NCBI GenBank assembly: GCA_016213785.1
Contig: JACQZQ010000104.1
Coordinates: forward strand, 1 to 64,000
Direction of reading: 5' to 3'
DNA: 64,000 nt
Source of the DNA: Acidobacteriota bacterium
GTDB taxonomy: Bacteria > Acidobacteriota > Blastocatellia > Chloracidobacteriales > JADJPF01
Shown: piece by piece, positions 23,723-31,349 of the stretch
Layout: each line of letters starts with the position of its first letter
How positions within the stretch are numbered: the stretch's first letter is position 1
The notes under the pieces: generated by a model
What the model was told of the DNA's origin: nothing
Database searches by the model: none
Seen by the model: the letters and a program-made list of their open reading frames with translations, nothing else
Program-made: the position numbers and the translations under genes

Positions 23723-24523
23723 ATGCCATATAGAAATCTAAAGGCTACCGAGACAGCAGAAACTATTTTTAACGACTTCCTTGCACGATTAGAAGAAAAA
23801 ATAAATGATACAAGCCTAGACCGTAATGATTTAGTTCGTGACACCCTCTATGAGATTTACTTTGGGCAAAGACCTAATATAAAAAATTTTTATAGTCATA
23901 AACATCCTGTTGCTGCCCGCGCTCTTATAGCTTCATTAGATCCTCGTAATACAACAATGGAGCCAGAATACTATACAGATTTAGACCAAGAAAAATACGC
24001 TAATATTAAACCTTTGATTTGGCTATGGCAAATGTTTGATCGCTCTCCACTAGGTGGAAACCTGCTTTTAGCATTTAGTTTTCGAAGAATGCTTGCTCCT
24101 TATATCTTTCGTAAAGTAGGGAAAAATTTTAAGTGTTTTCACTTTGTAGAATGGAGCTTTGGATATAACCTTACTATAGGTGATAATGTTGTAGTGCATA
24201 GGAATGTTCTCTTAGATGATCGTGGGGAGATAATTATTGGTAATAACGTTAGTATTTCTGATTATGCTAATGTTTATTCTCATTCTCATAGTGTAACAGA
24301 TATACATGATATAACCTCTAGACCTACAATAATTCATGACAATGTTAGATTAACTTATCATTCAACGGTTTTAGCAGGCTTAACTATTGGCGAAAATGGG
24401 ATGGTTGGGGCAATGGGGTTAGCAACAAGAGATGTTAAACCCTATCATGTTAACGTAGGTATTCCAGCTAAAAGTATTTTATTAAAATCTAATGCACCAG
24501 AACAGTATAAAAAAATTGATTAA
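23723..24523 (+). CDS. Hexapeptide-repeat acyltransferase
   Basis: The 266-residue protein ends in a left-handed beta-helix (about 145-250): LTIGDNVVVHRNVLL, IIIGNNVSISDYANVYSHSH, LTIGENGMVGAMGL and VNVGIPAKSI. The pattern and SHSHSV histidines fit the LbH acetyl/acyltransferase group, which commonly modify sugars or cell-surface glycans. The N-terminal 110 residues (SHKHPVAARALIASLDPRN) are helical and not the usual short maltose-acetyltransferase cap, so the substrate is unclear. It is preceded by AAGG. The following 260 bp hold no gene. Confidence 0.85.
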   Translation: MPYRNLKATETAETIFNDFLARLEEKINDTSLDRNDLVRDTLYEIYFGQRPNIKNFYSHKHPVAARALIASLDPRNTTMEPEYYTDLDQEKYANIKPLIWLWQMFDRSPLGGNLLLAFSFRRMLAPYIFRKVGKNFKCFHFVEWSFGYNLTIGDNVVVHRNVLLDDRGEIIIGNNVSISDYANVYSHSHSVTDIHDITSRPTIIHDNVRLTYHSTVLAGLTIGENGMVGAMGLATRDVKPYHVNVGIPAKSILLKSNAPEQYKKID

Positions 24524-24784
24524 ATTTACTGAAATTATAAAAAATATATTGGAAAGCTTACAAAAAGAAGTTTAAAATATATAAATATTTAATCGCTGTT
24601 TTGTTAACTAAAAGTTTAATTTCCGGAAAAATTTTGCTAGGCTAATTATTAAGTAAATTGTTGGGAGACTCTGTTTTAGCTATTGTTTATTGATAACAAA
24701 GCGGCTTTGTGCTCTTTCTAATAGAAAAAAGTAGTTGACTCCAAGGTGTAAGAATGGTAAATCTATGAAAAACTTGGAGTAGAA
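24524..24784. other. Intergenic region upstream of the riboswitch
   Basis: No reading frame of note. A perfect 8-bp inverted repeat (ACTCCAAG 24738-24745, CTTGGAGT 24773-24780) ends five bases before the aptamer. TTGACT (24735-24740) is a possible -35 element, but no good -10 stands at the right distance, so the promoter of the pil operon is not located with confidence. Confidence 0.5.
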
Positions 24785-24884
24785 ACCTTTGCTGCTCAGA
24801 GCAAATTTCGGGAAACCGAAAGACGCAGAGCCACGGGACTAAAGATTCTAAGTAATCTATGTCCGCCGAGCCGCCAGGAAAGGT
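24785..24884 (+). ncRNA. GEMM-class riboswitch (c-di-GMP-I type; A at the cGAMP-subclass position)
   Basis: The transcript folds as the GEMM aptamer. P1 is ACCTTT (24785-24790) with AAAGGT (24879-24884). A stem TTTCGG/CCGAAA is capped by a GAAA tetraloop (24812-24815), followed by the conserved core GACGCAGAGCCACGGGAC. A second stem contains a tetraloop-receptor variant (CTAAAG opposite CTATG) and is closed by GATT/AATC. GCCGAGCCGCC completes it. Aligned to the V. cholerae Vc2 aptamer, the base at G20 is A (24800). A at this position marks the 3',3'-cGAMP-preferring subclass described for Geobacter. AAGGT of P1 can instead pair with ACCTT (24892-24896), extended by CGCCA/TGGCG, so a ligand-dependent alternative hairpin is present. 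It lies 240 bp before pilM on the same strand. Confidence 0.88.
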
Positions 24885-25123
24885 ATAATTAACCTTGGTG
24901 GCGACCTAAGTCTTTCATCAACAATAATTATCAAAAGGTTGTCATTAAAATTAAGCGATACAATTTATTTCTCTATTGTGCTAATAACTTAAAAACGTTT
25001 TTAACTATTAAAGTTAGGCTTTAGCCAAAGGTGTGTTGCCTGTAAGTCAAAACCTTTTAACTTTTGACCTATTTGGGGTTAAAAATTTTAAGTTTACGTA
25101 GTGAGGATAAGTGAGGACATATT
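24885..25123 (+). promoter_or_regulatory. Leader between riboswitch and pilM
   Basis: The expression platform (24872-24903) forms CGCCA/TGGCG plus AAGGT/ACCTT around a seven-base loop, mutually exclusive with P1. It lacks a following T-run, so it is not a textbook terminator. The rest is AT-rich, without a reading frame, ending in the ribosome site GTGAGGA before ATG 25124. Confidence 0.5.
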
Positions 25124-26188
25124 ATGGGCTGGTTCAGCAGTAAAAAGAGCGTTGTAGGATTAGATATTGGCTCCAGCGCAGTAAAAGCAGTAGAACTAAA
25201 AGGTTCTCGAGGTAATTATGAATTAGTAAGTATAGGCCATGTACAACTTCTATCTGATACAATTGTAGATGGTCACATAATTGACTTAAACCATGTTTCT
25301 GATGTCATCAACAGAATATTCCAAGAACAAAATATTAAAACTAATTTAGTTGGTACTTCTGTTTCTGGTCACTCTGTTATTGTAAAAAAAATAAACCTTC
25401 CTACTATGAGTCCAGAAGAGTTAGGTGAACAAATTCATTGGGAAGCAGAACAATATATACCTTTTGCCTTAGATGAAGTAAATCTCAGTTATGAGATCTT
25501 AGGTAATGATGCTTCAGGCAATGGTATGGATGTGTTATTAGTAGCCTGTAAAAAAGATAAAATAGCACAATATACTCAGGTTATTAATCAAGCTGGAAAA
25601 CAGCTAAATTTTGTTGATGTAGATTCTTTTGCAATACAAACCTGTTATGAGGTTAATTATAAGCCTCAACCTACAACTACCGTAGCCTTGCTTGATATAG
25701 GCGCTAGTGTAATGAACATTAATGTAGTGCGTGGTTCACAATCTATTTTTACCCGTGATATTTCTGTTGGAGGCAATCAATATACTGATTTATTGCAAAA
25801 AGAATTAAACCTAACCTTTGATGAAGCAGAAAACTTAAAAAAGGGTATGCCTACTGAGTCTGGAGTTAAACCAGACGATGCTCAGCCCTTAATTCAATCA
25901 GTTTCAGAAATCTTAGCTCTAGAAGTACAAAAAACTCTAGATTTCTTTCGTGCTACTAGTTCAATGTCTGACTCTAGCAAAGTTGATCGTATGCTAGTTT
26001 CTGGTGGTAGTTCTAAAGTTCCTGGACTAACTTCCTATTTAGCAGAGCGTTTTGGAGTTCCAGTAGAAAAATTTGATTCATTCAGAACAATTAAATATAA
26101 CACCAAAAATTTTGACGAAGGCTATGTTCGTGAGCTTTCACCCAATATGGCTGTAGCTATTGGGTTAGCGCTCAGAAGTGGAGATTAA
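25124..26188 (+). CDS. pilM: Type IV pilus assembly protein PilM
   Basis: PilM is the actin-like cytoplasmic ATPase-fold component of the pilus alignment complex and binds the N-terminus of PilN. The 354-residue protein has the typical start (VVGLDIGSSAVKAVELK), the second phosphate loop (TTVALLDIGASVMNINVVRG), the insert QYTDLLQKELNLTFDEAE and the adenosine motif MLVSGGSSKVPGL. It heads an operon with pilN five bases downstream. GAGGA precedes the ATG. The leader carries a GEMM riboswitch. Confidence 0.95.
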   Translation: MGWFSSKKSVVGLDIGSSAVKAVELKGSRGNYELVSIGHVQLLSDTIVDGHIIDLNHVSDVINRIFQEQNIKTNLVGTSVSGHSVIVKKINLPTMSPEELGEQIHWEAEQYIPFALDEVNLSYEILGNDASGNGMDVLLVACKKDKIAQYTQVINQAGKQLNFVDVDSFAIQTCYEVNYKPQPTTTVALLDIGASVMNINVVRGSQSIFTRDISVGGNQYTDLLQKELNLTFDEAENLKKGMPTESGVKPDDAQPLIQSVSEILALEVQKTLDFFRATSSMSDSSKVDRMLVSGGSSKVPGLTSYLAERFGVPVEKFDSFRTIKYNTKNFDEGYVRELSPNMAVAIGLALRSGD

Positions 26189-26193
26189 TTATT

Positions 26194-26811
26194 ATGCCAA
26201 AAATAAATTTATTAGATCAGGCTAAAACAGAATCAACTAGTTCAAAGGCTAGTTCTATTAGTGCTCAAACTGGTCAGCTTATTGTAATGGTAGCAGTAGT
26301 AGTATTGGGCGTTATTTCTTGGCTAGTCTATTCTTGGTACATCACAGACTTAGAAAATAAACGGGTAAAAGAAGACTTAGCCAATGAACAAAAAGTAGCT
26401 GCTGAACTGGCTAAATTAAAAGAAGATGCTGATAAACTACAAAAACAAATCACTTTAGTAGAAAATAGAGTAAAAGTTATTAAGCAATTGCGAGCAGAGC
26501 AACGTGGCCCTGTAGCAGTACTCTCTAGTATAAATGAGCTTGTTCCAATTGGAATAAGATTAGATTCTATCACCCAACGTGGTAGCGCAATGACAATAGT
26601 AGGCAACACCACCACAGAAGCTTTAATTTCAAGTTTTGCTAAGGATTTAGAGTTCTCACGCGGTCTTTTTAATGGTGTTGAAATTCAAACCCAGCAACAA
26701 GCTGGCACAGCCACTACTGAACCAGTTACTAATTTTACTATTCGTTGCGTTTATAACCCACCTGTTGCCAATCAAAAACCAACAGATGGTCAAACAGCTA
26801 GTGCTAATTAA
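26194..26811 (+). CDS. pilN: Type IV pilus assembly protein PilN
   Basis: PilN is an inner-membrane protein with one membrane helix. Here MPKINLLDQ (the conserved PilM-binding N-terminus INLL) is followed by a hydrophobic helix at about 29-47, a long coiled coil (about 55-95) and a ferredoxin-like periplasmic fold. The C-terminal tail is disordered (Asn/Gln/Thr). At 205 residues it has the usual size. It lies between pilM and pilO with gaps of 5 and 12 bp. Confidence 0.9.
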   Translation: MPKINLLDQAKTESTSSKASSISAQTGQLIVMVAVVVLGVISWLVYSWYITDLENKRVKEDLANEQKVAAELAKLKEDADKLQKQITLVENRVKVIKQLRAEQRGPVAVLSSINELVPIGIRLDSITQRGSAMTIVGNTTTEALISSFAKDLEFSRGLFNGVEIQTQQQAGTATTEPVTNFTIRCVYNPPVANQKPTDGQTASAN

Positions 26812-26823
26812 AGGAGAAATTTT

Positions 26824-27447
26824 ATGGCCGACGCAAAGGGCAATAATTTTTTAGCTGGAGTTCCTTGGTTTGTTCAGTTCATTGGCATAATTTTGATAGG
26901 TGTGATTATAGGCTACGGTGGAAGTAATTTCCTTTTTGCTGATACTCGCGAAGAAACCAGAAAAAAACAAGAAGAACTAAATAAACTTAGAGAAGATAAC
27001 CGTAAGGGCGCTATTGTTAGAGATAACCTTAAATCCTATCAAAAACGCTATGATGATGCACAAGCTGAGTTAAAAGTGCTTCGTGATTTTTTACCAGAAG
27101 ATGTTGAAATTTCTAGAGTCTTAGAAAATATTCAACAACAAGCTACAGAACAAAAATTAACTCTTAAAGTCTTTATTGGTAGAGATTTACAAAAGAAAGA
27201 CTTCTATAAAGAAAAACCTGTTAATATTCAAGTCTCTGGTCTTTACAATAGTTTAGGTAAATTCTTTCAACAAATAGCTACTTATCGTAGAATTGTTAGT
27301 GTATCAGACGTAGAAATTAAAAAAGCTAACCCACAAACCTTAAATCACGATATTGATGCTAGTTTTACTGTAACTGCATATGTAGCAAGTGAACAAGATG
27401 TTAGTAATGTTTCAGCACCAGCAGATGATAAAGGAGGCCAAAAATAA
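26824..27447 (+). CDS. pilO: Type IV pilus assembly protein PilO
   Basis: PilO pairs with PilN in the periplasm. The 207-residue protein has one membrane helix (about 14-33), a coiled coil (about 42-80, RKKQEELNKLREDNRK) and a C-terminal ferredoxin-like domain with the family pattern FLPEDVEISRVLENIQQQA and NIQVSGLYNSLGKFFQQIA. AAAGGAGAAA precedes ATG 26824. pilP begins two bases after its stop. Confidence 0.92.
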   Translation: MADAKGNNFLAGVPWFVQFIGIILIGVIIGYGGSNFLFADTREETRKKQEELNKLREDNRKGAIVRDNLKSYQKRYDDAQAELKVLRDFLPEDVEISRVLENIQQQATEQKLTLKVFIGRDLQKKDFYKEKPVNIQVSGLYNSLGKFFQQIATYRRIVSVSDVEIKKANPQTLNHDIDASFTVTAYVASEQDVSNVSAPADDKGGQK

Positions 27448-27449
27448 CA

Positions 27450-28049
27450 ATGCTCAAGCTCAATTTAAATCGCTTTGTTCTTTTCTCTCTAGTAGTCTTA
27501 CTATGTGTTTCTTTATCAATTATCTCTAATAGCTTTGCTCAAGCACCTGCTCCAGGTCAAAACCCTCAAGCTGACGCTGCTAAGGTAGGCCCAAATGTTG
27601 AGCTTTTTTCTACTACATATAAAGAACCTAAGGTAGATCCTTTTTTTGATGAGAAGCTACTTCCTAAAAAAGAAGAAGTAAAACCTATTAAAGAAAAAGT
27701 AGTAGTAGAAGTTGTTCCACCCCCTACTTTTGAAGATCGTGATTCAGCTTGGAAAGAAAAACGAGAAAGAACTAGAGGCTCAGGCCAACCAGAACCAGCA
27801 TCATCAGAAAAATACCTTATTGATGAAGTAAAAATTCTAGGAATTTATAAAAAGCCTGACTCTCAAGGTGTTTTCCTAAAACCAACAACTACTGCTAGTA
27901 CTATGATTTTTGCTACTGTAGGCCAAGAGTTTTGGAATGGAAAAATTACTCGTATTGAAAAAGATAAAGTAGAATTTGAAGTTAGAACTGTTTATTCAGA
28001 TAAGACAGTTAAAACTAAAACAGAATTTCGCCCCTTTACTCGCAAATAA
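27450..28049 (+). CDS. pilP: PilP-like pilus assembly protein, copy 1
   Basis: PilP links the PilN/PilO complex to the PilQ secretin. The 199-residue protein has a signal sequence (residues about 8-30, ending SFA|QA), a proline-rich disordered stretch (about 31-105) and a beta-domain with KYLIDEVKILGIYKKPDSQG. AAGGAGG precedes the ATG. It has a closely similar neighbour immediately downstream. Both are placed exactly where a single pilP normally sits, so function is inferred from position, size and the EVKILGIY-type strand. The cleaved protein would be periplasmic; no lipobox is seen. Confidence 0.8.
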   Translation: MLKLNLNRFVLFSLVVLLCVSLSIISNSFAQAPAPGQNPQADAAKVGPNVELFSTTYKEPKVDPFFDEKLLPKKEEVKPIKEKVVVEVVPPPTFEDRDSAWKEKRERTRGSGQPEPASSEKYLIDEVKILGIYKKPDSQGVFLKPTTTASTMIFATVGQEFWNGKITRIEKDKVEFEVRTVYSDKTVKTKTEFRPFTRK

Positions 28050-28065
28050 ACCTAAGGAGGCTAAT

Positions 28066-28644
28066 GTGTTAGCTAAATTTGATTTTCAAAAATTTGCTAC
28101 TTTTAGTTTAGGAGTAACTTTAACTTTACTTCTAGTCTCTGCTAATGGATTTGCACAAAATCTTACACAACAAATTACTGGCCCTCCAGAATCAGCTTTA
28201 TCAACAGATTATAGAGAGGCTAAATTATCACCTTTTGCAGATAGTAATTTAATAAATAGACCTACTATTAGAAATGACTTTACACCACCTGTTCTAGCTA
28301 GCCCTATTGCGCCACCAAGCTTTGAGCAAAGAGATTTAGCTTGGAAGGAAAAACGCTCTTTAGCTGTTAAAACCAATATGCCTAGCCCTTCTACATCTGA
28401 AAAGTACTTAATTAGTGAAGTTAAAATATTAGGCTTATATCAAAAACCTGAAGGCCAAGGTGTTTTCCTTAAGCCTACACTAGCAATGGGAACTACTATT
28501 TTTGCTATGGTGGGTCAAGAATTTTGGGACGGTAAGATTAAAAAAATTAATAAAGATAGTATAGAAGTGGAAAAAATAATTTTACTTAATACAGGTAAAA
28601 CCAAAACCGAATTTCAAACTATCCCTTTTACACGCAACAAATAG
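28066..28644 (+). CDS. PilP-like pilus assembly protein, tandem copy 2
   Basis: This 192-residue protein is a paralogue of the gene before it. Shared segments are WKEKR, SEKYLI-EVKILG-Y, QGVFLKPT, VGQEFW-GKI and the ending KTKTEF...PFTR. It has a signal peptide ending GFA|Q. The frame is open from 27976, but the start should be GTG 28066: AAGGAGG lies seven bases upstream and the signal peptide begins there. Sixteen bases separate it from copy 1. Whether it replaces, supplements or specialises copy 1 cannot be told. The proline-rich linker differs most. Confidence 0.8.
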   Translation: MLAKFDFQKFATFSLGVTLTLLLVSANGFAQNLTQQITGPPESALSTDYREAKLSPFADSNLINRPTIRNDFTPPVLASPIAPPSFEQRDLAWKEKRSLAVKTNMPSPSTSEKYLISEVKILGLYQKPEGQGVFLKPTLAMGTTIFAMVGQEFWDGKIKKINKDSIEVEKIILLNTGKTKTEFQTIPFTRNK

Positions 28645-28721: not shown

Positions 28722-30974
28722 ATGCCTAGAGATTACCGAGTTAGAGCAGCCGTAATAATTGCAATGCTTCTTTTCTTAGGTACGCTTAAAGGAACATTTG
28801 CATATGAGACCAAGGCAAAGAGCGCGGTTTCTTTAACGACAATTAATAACATTACAACTAAATCTGAGAATGGACGTATAGCCGCAATTATTCAAGCTGA
28901 CGGCCCCCTCACTTATAAAGTATTCGCACTACATTCTCCTGAACGTGTGGTGATGGATATAACGGGAGCAACCAGCAATATAGCTAAAAATATCGATTCT
29001 ATTTCAGATAAATTAATTAGCATTCGTGTTGGTACTCAAGCTAGCAATGATTTACGTATTGTATTTGACTTAAAAGATAAATGTTCTTATCAAGTACAAA
29101 ATCTTGCTTCTGGTCTAGCAATATATTTCTCTGATTTTCAAGAAACTAAAAAACAAGAAGTAAGCGCTAAACCTGTTAGCAAAAAGCAAAATATTGCTCC
29201 TCTTGTAGCCCCACCAGATACTAATGGTATTTCTGTTGGTAGAGAAGAAAAAGAAGAAAAAACCTCAGCAAAAACAGGTAAAGAAGCTGAAGGTCGTACT
29301 TCTAGCAATCTACCAAGCGTAAAAGGGCCTAGCATCCGTCCAGGGCTTTCTAAATCAGCCGCAGCACGCCCAGCATTATCAGTAAATTCAACTAATAATT
29401 CTGCTGATGTAGATAATCCATCCGATCCACAAACAGCTAAAAGCCGTTTTGGTGAACCAGGGTTTATTGGTGATCCTATTAGTATTGATATTGCTGCTGT
29501 AGATCTTAATGACGTTCTACGCTTTATATCTGATAACTATGGCGAAAACTTTATTCAAGATAAATCTGTGGGTACAGTTAGTGTTACTCTTAAAGTAAAT
29601 GATGTCCCCTGGAATCAAGTTGTTGAGTCTATATTTAGGGCAAACCAACTTAGTTTTACTAGAGAAGGTTTAATTGTTCGTGTTGCTACCCTACCTGCAC
29701 TAGCACAAGAGCAAGCTCAAAAACGCGCATTAGAAGAAGAAAGAAATAATGCTTTACCAAAACAAACTAAGTTCTTTAGGTTAAAATATATTCGCTTAGG
29801 TTCATCTACCATAGGTTCTGGTGGAACAGGTGCTTTAGGAGGAACTCAAGCAGCTAGCAATATTAGCGGCCAAGGTGGTAATACAGGTGGAATTGGTGCA
29901 ACAGGCTTAGTTGGTATTATCTTAAAAACCCTCTCTAAATTAGGTCAAGTTGACGCTGATTTCCGCACTAATCAAATTATAGTTACAGACCTACCTCAAA
30001 ATGTTCTTGCAGTAGAAGACATTATTAGAAAACTTGATGTTCCAGAACCACAAGTAGAAATTGAAGCAAGAGTAGTACTTGCAAACCGAAGTTTCTCACG
30101 TACTATTGGTAATCAATTAGCCTTAGCAGCTACTCAAACAAGACCAGTTGGCCCATTCTTACCAGATGGTTCAAGAAAAGGTGTACTAGGTTTTGGCGCA
30201 ATTTTTGAAACTTCTCCACAACTCTTTAGCACTCCTATAAGAACAGATTCAGCAGGTCTAGCAGCAAATGGTAACAACGTAGGTGGTAGTGGGTTAATCG
30301 GCCCAGTAGCTAATGGGGCTTTAGCTGGCGCAGGAGCATCTGTATTAAGCTTAACTACAGGTGTAATAGGCACATCCATACTTTCAACAGCAATAACTGC
30401 TTCTGAACAAAAAGGTGTAGCTAAAACAATCTCTAACCCACGTGTTACAGTTCAAAATAACACACCTGCCGATATAACTAGTGGTACTCAGATAGCTGTA
30501 CAAACAGAAGTTAATAACACTATCACTACAACCTTTGTAACAGCAGCATTACGCTTAAACGTTATCCCTCAAATAGCTGATGAAGGCAATGTTTTAATGC
30601 GTATAGTAGTAGAAAATAACTCTGTTGATCGTTCATTAAGAACTACTGGTGGAACTCCTTCAATTAGTACTCAACGCGCTGAAACTCTGGTTTTAGTACC
30701 AGATGGAGGAACAACCATTCTAGGTGGTATTAATTTTGATACTGAAGCAAGTACTAATACTCGCACTCCTGGAATTTCTCGTGTTCCATTTCTAGGAGAA
30801 CTATTTAAGAGACGTTCATTAGATCGCAACAGTACAGAGTTATTATTCTTTGTAACACCTCGTATTTACAGACCAGAAACTTTTGGCGCACAAACAGCAC
30901 CTCCAAACCCAGCACAAACAGTCAGCCCACAAGCACAACCTCAAGTTGTTCCACAAAGCGGAGGCGAGCGCTAA
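28722..30974 (+). CDS. pilQ: Type IV pilus secretin PilQ
   Basis: PilQ forms the outer-membrane pore for the pilus. The 750-residue protein has a signal peptide (10-27), an AMIN domain (about 38-138), a disordered Lys/Ser-rich linker (140-240), an STN/N0-type domain (about 253-325), an N1/NolW region interrupted by a Gly/Ala/Thr-rich loop (about 361-394), and a secretin domain (about 445-715) ending with VLVPDGGTTILGGI and PGISRVPFLGELFKRRS. The tail is Pro/Gln-rich. GAGGAGG precedes the ATG. One AMIN domain is seen, whereas many PilQ proteins have two. The roadblock gene starts three bases after its stop. Confidence 0.95.
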   Translation: MPRDYRVRAAVIIAMLLFLGTLKGTFAYETKAKSAVSLTTINNITTKSENGRIAAIIQADGPLTYKVFALHSPERVVMDITGATSNIAKNIDSISDKLISIRVGTQASNDLRIVFDLKDKCSYQVQNLASGLAIYFSDFQETKKQEVSAKPVSKKQNIAPLVAPPDTNGISVGREEKEEKTSAKTGKEAEGRTSSNLPSVKGPSIRPGLSKSAAARPALSVNSTNNSADVDNPSDPQTAKSRFGEPGFIGDPISIDIAAVDLNDVLRFISDNYGENFIQDKSVGTVSVTLKVNDVPWNQVVESIFRANQLSFTREGLIVRVATLPALAQEQAQKRALEEERNNALPKQTKFFRLKYIRLGSSTIGSGGTGALGGTQAASNISGQGGNTGGIGATGLVGIILKTLSKLGQVDADFRTNQIIVTDLPQNVLAVEDIIRKLDVPEPQVEIEARVVLANRSFSRTIGNQLALAATQTRPVGPFLPDGSRKGVLGFGAIFETSPQLFSTPIRTDSAGLAANGNNVGGSGLIGPVANGALAGAGASVLSLTTGVIGTSILSTAITASEQKGVAKTISNPRVTVQNNTPADITSGTQIAVQTEVNNTITTTFVTAALRLNVIPQIADEGNVLMRIVVENNSVDRSLRTTGGTPSISTQRAETLVLVPDGGTTILGGINFDTEASTNTRTPGISRVPFLGELFKRRSLDRNSTELLFFVTPRIYRPETFGAQTAPPNPAQTVSPQAQPQVVPQSGGER

Positions 30975-30977
30975 GTA

Positions 30978-31349
30978 ATGGTATTTTCAGAGCTACTCAA
31001 GCAAATAATAAATAAAGTAGAAGGTGCCGTTGGAGTCCTAATTATGGGACTCGACGGCATCGCTATCGAACAGCAAATAGAAGACCCTCGCAACTATGAT
31101 GGTCAACTCTCTATTATTGCTGCCGCCTATGCCACCCTTCTGCGTAATTCTATACGAACCTCTTCTGATGTTGGAGTTGGTGCATTACAAGAAATGACTG
31201 TTATTTCAGGAAACTTAACTTTAGTGATAAAGTTAATTAATCCTGAGTATTTTCTTTTAATAGCACTAGGCCCAAATGGAAATGTAGGGCGGGCACGTTT
31301 TGAACTACGTAAAGCTCAACTCCTTTTAGAAGAAGAGTTTGCGTTCTAA
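30978..31349 (+). CDS. Roadblock/LC7 domain protein (MglB-like)
   Basis: The 123-residue protein is a single Roadblock/LC7 domain: VEGAVGVLIMGLDGIAIEQQ, then a helix and VISGNLTLVIKLINPEYFLLIAL. MglB, a protein of this fold, is the GTPase-activating partner of the Ras-like MglA, which sets the pole at which type IV pili work in Myxococcus. Here no MglA is adjacent, but tight placement (three bases after pilQ) argues for a role in pilus control. It is the last gene of the riboswitch-controlled operon. Other roadblock proteins regulate unrelated GTPases, so the partner is open. Confidence 0.88.
   Translation: MVFSELLKQIINKVEGAVGVLIMGLDGIAIEQQIEDPRNYDGQLSIIAAAYATLLRNSIRTSSDVGVGALQEMTVISGNLTLVIKLINPEYFLLIALGPNGNVGRARFELRKAQLLLEEEFAF

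Follow-up and report, generated by a model that had tools for sequence, protein, structure and literature searches.

A GEMM-I riboswitch with adenine at position 20 before the pilMNOPQ operon of Blastocatellia: a probably cGAMP-responsive, perhaps promiscuous, variant

Background

In the Vc2 riboswitch, position 20 recognizes the ligand's alpha base, and the G20A mutant of Vc2 binds both c-di-GMP and cGAMP. The structure of this engineered mutant with cGAMP is 4YB1. The Vc2 letters and numbering used below for the comparison of J1/2 agree with the residue list in PMC7288161, and Vc2 G20A is listed as a cGAMP sensor (PMC11352751).

The pilM riboswitch of Geobacter metallireducens binds cGAMP, and in the Geobacter pilM leader the terminator sequesters C75, the counterpart of C92 (PMC9262584). 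In G. sulfurreducens the expression of pilMNOP depends on cGAMP (PMC6456294). Mutations in the lower part of P2 affect ligand selectivity, and in the c-di-GMP riboswitch Cd1 a G-to-A change at the equivalent base had no large effect on binding (both PMC9262584). Enzymes of the Hypr type are recognized by Ser348, a GGDE[F/Y] motif and the absence of Arg at position 304 (PMC6456294). The general idea of cGAMP control of pilM, offered as a novelty in the earlier note on this locus, is thus already published for Geobacter (PMC9262584, PMC6456294), and its extension to pilus biogenesis would be new for the present lineage alone. A search of open-licence papers found nothing about cGAMP riboswitches from Acidobacteria or Blastocatellia.

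Results and discussion

A GEMM-I aptamer in the leader of the pilus operon

The window, i.e. the whole stretch of 64,000 nucleotides that was analysed, derives from an uncultured groundwater acidobacterium (genome G000). Its single Rfam cmscan match is to RF01051 (c-di-GMP-I/GEMM-I), at 24790-24878 on the forward strand, the strand of all features described here. The match extends over the full model (1-87) and scores 63.8 bits (gathering score 35; E 3.7e-10). The covariance model thereby confirms, at the level of sequence, a real GEMM-I aptamer, of a sensor class for cyclic dinucleotides and with a putative ligand, 5' of the type IV pilus operon. The riboswitch and its limits (24785-24903) had been proposed accurately from the letters alone.

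The structural traits of the class are present: a three-way junction with P1, a GAAA loop with its receptor, and equivalents of A47 and C92. The 5' strand of P1, ACCUUUGCUG (24785-24794), pairs with the 3' strand, CAGGAAAGGU (24875-24884), in nine pairs and one G-G mismatch (24791:24878); the equivalents of Vc2 G14-C93 are 24794:24875. According to the pair list of the covariance-model alignment, P2 occupies 24801-24826 and is capped by the GAAA tetraloop at 24812-24815, whereas P3 (24829-24872) carries the receptor-like strands CUAAAG and CUAUG; the tetraloop and a variant receptor had both been noticed before, and the strands CUAA and CUAUG are indeed there, with one extra A. The same alignment places the equivalent of C92, the Watson-Crick partner of the ligand guanine, at 24874 and that of A47 at 24827. 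In the Vc2 structures A47 intercalates between the ligand bases, and the same role is expected of 24827.

The equivalent of Vc2 G20 is an A, at 24800 (Rfam model position 11), a reading first made from the letters alone that the covariance-model alignment bears out. It adjoins the basal pair of P2 (24801:24826), which is G-C, as is G21-C46 in Vc2. J1/2 reads GCUCAGAGC and differs from its counterpart in Vc2, GCACAGGGC, by A16U and G20A alone, so that, as judged from the alignment, these two substitutions are all that sets the ligand pocket apart from that of Vc2.

The first downstream gene is pilM (25124-26188; PF11104, E 1.7e-76), the start of which lies 245 nt 3' of the aptamer end. It is followed by pilN (26194-26811; PF05137), pilO (26824-27447; PF04350), a pilP-like ORF (27450-28049), a second pilP-like ORF (27976-28644), the secretin gene pilQ (28722-30974; PF00263 and PF11741) and, at the operon end, a gene for a roadblock/LC7-like protein (30978-31349; PF03259, just below the cut-off). 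ORF and Pfam matches thus agree with the previously suggested location of the switch upstream of pilM-pilQ. The two tandem pilP-like ORFs between pilO and pilQ (27450-28644) both lack a Pfam match; the assignment of the first follows from its operon position, whereas the second resembles it by eye and probably has its true start 3' of 27976. The arrangement looks like a duplication. Upstream of the switch lies a hexapeptide-repeat protein gene (23723-24523; PF00132), which served as synteny marker.

An alternative hairpin

In the predicted minimum-free-energy structure of 24778-24910, the segment 24870-24902 forms a hairpin that takes in the 3' strand of P1 and the C92 equivalent, so that it can coexist neither with P1 nor with an unpaired C92 equivalent. 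The state with the hairpin has a predicted energy of -40.0 kcal/mol, against -30.6 for the fold in which the aptamer and P1 are forced, the latter without ligand energy. The predicted folds therefore uphold the earlier suggestion that P1 can be exchanged for a downstream hairpin, but the hairpin is weaker than was claimed. Its z-score against shuffled sequences is a moderate -2.5 (-1.8, -0.6 and -1.3 in three relatives), whereas a control terminator of the Geobacter group reaches -5.1. It is not a classical terminator: no U-tract follows 24902, whereas the control leaders of Geotalea show a textbook terminator. Scans of the leader for sigma-70 promoters and terminators gave results near chance, with nothing convincing on the forward strand. 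Control of translation through occlusion of the ribosome site was considered and is unlikely, as the hairpin ends some 220 nt 5' of the pilM start.

We propose that ligand binding would join P1 to the three-way junction, and so keep the 3' strand of P1 and the C92 equivalent from the alternative hairpin. If Geobacter pilM is a guide, the ligand would then raise expression of the pilus operon; the mode of control, its level included, we can only infer.

Position 20 across the Blastocatellia

Base 20 could be read for 136 RF01051 matches in 72 genomes, among the 150 matches listed, in a search of 162 Blastocatellia genomes that used the stricter filters of Infernal and from which weak switches are missing. 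It was G in 124 matches, A in 11 and C in one. Nine of the 11 A20 switches occur in four genomes in which every listed match has A20, namely G000 (2/2), G001 (2/2) and G002 (2/2), which together with G003 belong to one family, and G017 (3/3), which belongs to another; outside these four, A was found in 2 of the 127 listed matches. Only two GEMM-I switches were found in the whole genome of G000, both of them A20. When the base-20 labels were shuffled, the observed number of A-A pairs within genomes was reached in 9 of 20,000 shuffles, and in 12 of 20,000 when a single member of the G000 family was kept, the shuffles ignoring relatedness between switches of one genome.

The base appears to have changed at more than one switch, because the second switch, which stands before a related TPR-type secreted protein, has A20 in G000, G001 and G002 but G20 in G003. 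In G000 this switch (contig C115, 55965-56058) is followed by the gene for the secreted TPR-type protein and then by a protein-kinase-like gene. In G017, A20 is also found in the third switch, whose J1/2 is different. As far as the alignments go, both cases argue for a repeated change to A20.

Two other matches deserve mention. Genome G058 has a Vc2-like A20 switch, CUGCUCAGAGC (contig C133, 4692-4777), before a lipoprotein-like ORF and with a U-rich stretch after it, while G20 is found in the remaining four switches of that genome, the pilM switch among them; acquisition by transfer is possible. One GEMM-I match in G061 (contig C263, 3069-3145) carries C as base 20 (AACGCAACC), a base expected for neither ligand, which may reflect an alignment shift.

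One syntenic switch, two specificity bases

A switch in the pilM leader, the position proposed here for a functional riboswitch, also occurs in other Blastocatellia. It has A20 in G000, G001, G002 and G017, and G20 in seven genomes of family f4 (G023, G027, G058, G079, G080, G093 and G094). Judged by eye, a gene similar to the hexapeptide-repeat gene also precedes the pilM switch in G023 and G080, and such an ORF stands before pilM in G003 as well. In the latter genome the upstream gene and pilM are kept with no recognisable switch between them, and the sole remaining switch has G20. The pilM leaders of G003, G004, G005, G008, G021 and G040 gave no riboswitch match even at E 5. The most informative finding of this analysis is a pilM switch that is shared between families but differs in its specificity base.

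Among the genomes with A20, the pairing of P1 is retained in G001 and G002 and, through pairs of other types, in G017. Both strands of the P2 helix are altered in G017, as they are in G002. J1/2 and A20 are nearly invariant across two families, whereas the pairs of P1 and P2 vary.

A possible source of cGAMP

Twelve GGDEF matches were found in G000, two of which have Ser at the Hypr position; canonical GGDEFs are also present. One of the two, a GAF-GGDEF protein (contig C52, 49415), combines the sequence GHLCGS with a GGDEF motif and a Pro aligned to Tyr304 of GacA, in agreement with all three parts of the Hypr rule (Ser348, GGDE[F/Y], non-Arg at 304). Of the PDB entries it matches GmGacA best (6d9m; E 5e-42), with the next entry at 2.5e-28. 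These residues fit a putative, GacA-like Hypr cGAMP synthase, which would be the source of cGAMP in this organism. No SMODS (PF18144) match was found in the G000 assembly, which is 96% complete. Of the two kinds of cGAMP enzyme that the earlier note proposed to look for, only a candidate of the GGDEF kind was encountered, and not a DncV-like synthase.

The second protein, an FHA-GGDEF on contig C91, has Ser at the Hypr position with a GGEEF motif, at odds with the Ser348/GGDE rule, and in its GGDEF domain it most resembles ordinary diguanylate cyclases. It belongs to a family (G000, C91, 153148-153630) with Ser at the Hypr position and GGEEF or GGEEY; this Ser/GGEE pattern occurs in 97 of the 162 Blastocatellia genomes, contrary to the published occurrence of Ser/Thr348 only with GGDE[F/Y]. 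In G008, a probable Chloracidobacterium, the only Ser-GGDEF found is of the FHA kind. The gene Cabther_A1065 is presumably also from Chloracidobacterium. According to eLife 2019, it encodes a Hypr enzyme producing more c-di-GMP.

Neither pattern serves as a marker of A20 genomes. Ser-GGDEF in general is present in 132 of the 162 genomes; the Ser/GGDEF kind is present in 84 of the 162 and, by pattern, absent from the A20 genome G017, in which the Ser-GGDEF is of the Ser/GGEE kind only. Since many genomes with G20 switches, G003 included, carry Hypr-type cyclases, the presence of A20 in a genome is not accounted for by its cyclases.

Comparison of scaffolds with the Geobacter group

In three genomes of the Geobacter group, 30 switches could be read, 17 with A20 and 13 with G20. 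All 17 A20 switches have C21-G46 as the basal P2 pair, and the pilM switches combine A20-C21 with U-tract terminators. The window switch shares A20 with these GEMM-Ib switches but has G21-C46, and all 11 Blastocatellia A20 switches, among the matches listed, have G21. Because the A20 switches are G21 in the Blastocatellia and C21 in the Geobacter group, they use a different scaffold, and A20 most likely arose independently in the former.

Which ligand?

Together these results suggest a member of a known riboswitch class in which A20 arose independently and which is probably cGAMP-responsive and perhaps promiscuous. With A20 in a Vc2-like pocket, the switch most likely responds to 3',3'-cGAMP and probably retains some binding of c-di-GMP; as with Vc2 G20A, a pocket of this kind is expected to bind both. 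The whole proposal, of an A20 GEMM-I switch before pilMNOPQ with these properties, has in our estimation an even chance of being right. cGAMP, alone or beside c-di-GMP, is the likelier physiological ligand, chiefly in view of the genome-wide occurrence of A20 and the presence of a GacA-like cyclase. This reading is not firm: the G-to-A change in Cd1 had little effect, and the C21-G46 pair of Geobacter is missing. The equation of A20 with cGAMP recognition in the earlier note is hence plausible and made more likely by the two A20 switches and the GacA-like enzyme of G000, but not by the scaffold.

A rather unlikely but serious alternative is a conventional c-di-GMP riboswitch in which A20 is tolerated and only lowers affinity or has drifted, c-di-GMP from the canonical GGDEFs remaining the physiological ligand. 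It would agree with the GEMM-Ia-like scaffold (G21-C46, GAAA loop, 11-nt-type receptor), with the G20 of the orthologous pilM switches in f4, and with the behaviour of Cd1 (PMC9262584). Drift, however, should not strike every switch of a genome, as it would have in four genomes (2/2, 2/2, 2/2 and 3/3 A20, against 2/127 elsewhere among the matches listed), nor does it sit well with an A20 that stays fixed in two families whose neighbouring helices vary. That the switch is instead fully selective for cGAMP, as in the GEMM-Ib kind of Geobacter, seems improbable: A20 at 24800, the identical operon and the GacA-like cyclase would suit it, but the window switch lacks the C21-G46 and U22 found in 17/17 Geobacter-group A20 switches, its J1/2 matches Vc2 and not Geobacter, and it has no U-tract terminator. 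Least probable is a remnant that still folds but has lost control of pilM. The distance of 245 nt to the start codon with no recognisable terminator or ribosome-site sequestration, the weak alternative hairpins of the relatives and the absence of a switch before pilM in G003 would suit it, whereas the conservation across two families of J1/2, A20, the J2/3 strand and P1 pairing, in leaders that have otherwise diverged, speaks against it.

If the preferred reading, cGAMP recognition through A20, holds here, RNA signalling by 3',3'-cGAMP would reach the Acidobacteriota, beyond the Geobacter group, and would again control pili; the C21-G46 feature of Geobacter would then not be needed in nature. 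More tentatively, and with somewhat less than even confidence, we suggest that two lineages of Blastocatellia moved their entire GEMM-I regulon from c-di-GMP to cGAMP by one single change, of G20 to A20, on a GEMM-Ia scaffold and independently of Geobacter. Were this true, cGAMP control of pilMNOPQ would have arisen twice. New in the present work are the base-20 census of Blastocatellia switches and the split of the syntenic pilM switch between families with G20 and families with A20, which offers a natural experiment on ligand change in a riboswitch.

Relation to known systems

The closest described relative of the pocket is Vc2: J1/2 is equal save A16U and G20A, and G21-C46, A47, C92 and the GAAA loop are kept, but A20 is natural here and engineered in Vc2 G20A, and the expression platform and the pilM operon differ. 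The pilM switch of Geobacter metallireducens, of the GEMM-Ib kind, resembles the window switch in A20, in its place before pilM and in a hairpin that sequesters the ligand-pairing C, whereas the Geobacter group has C21-G46 and, in the pilM leaders of Geotalea, a U-tract terminator, in place of the G21-C46, the Vc2-like J1/2 and the hairpin with no U-tract found here. The pilM-leader GEMM-I switches of family f4 stand before the same operon but have G20 and are expected to be of the c-di-GMP type. Finally, the putative cyclase on C52 agrees with GacA (GSU1658 and its G. metallireducens counterpart) in Ser348, GGDEF and a non-Arg residue at 304, but has a GAF sensor domain where GacA has a receiver domain.
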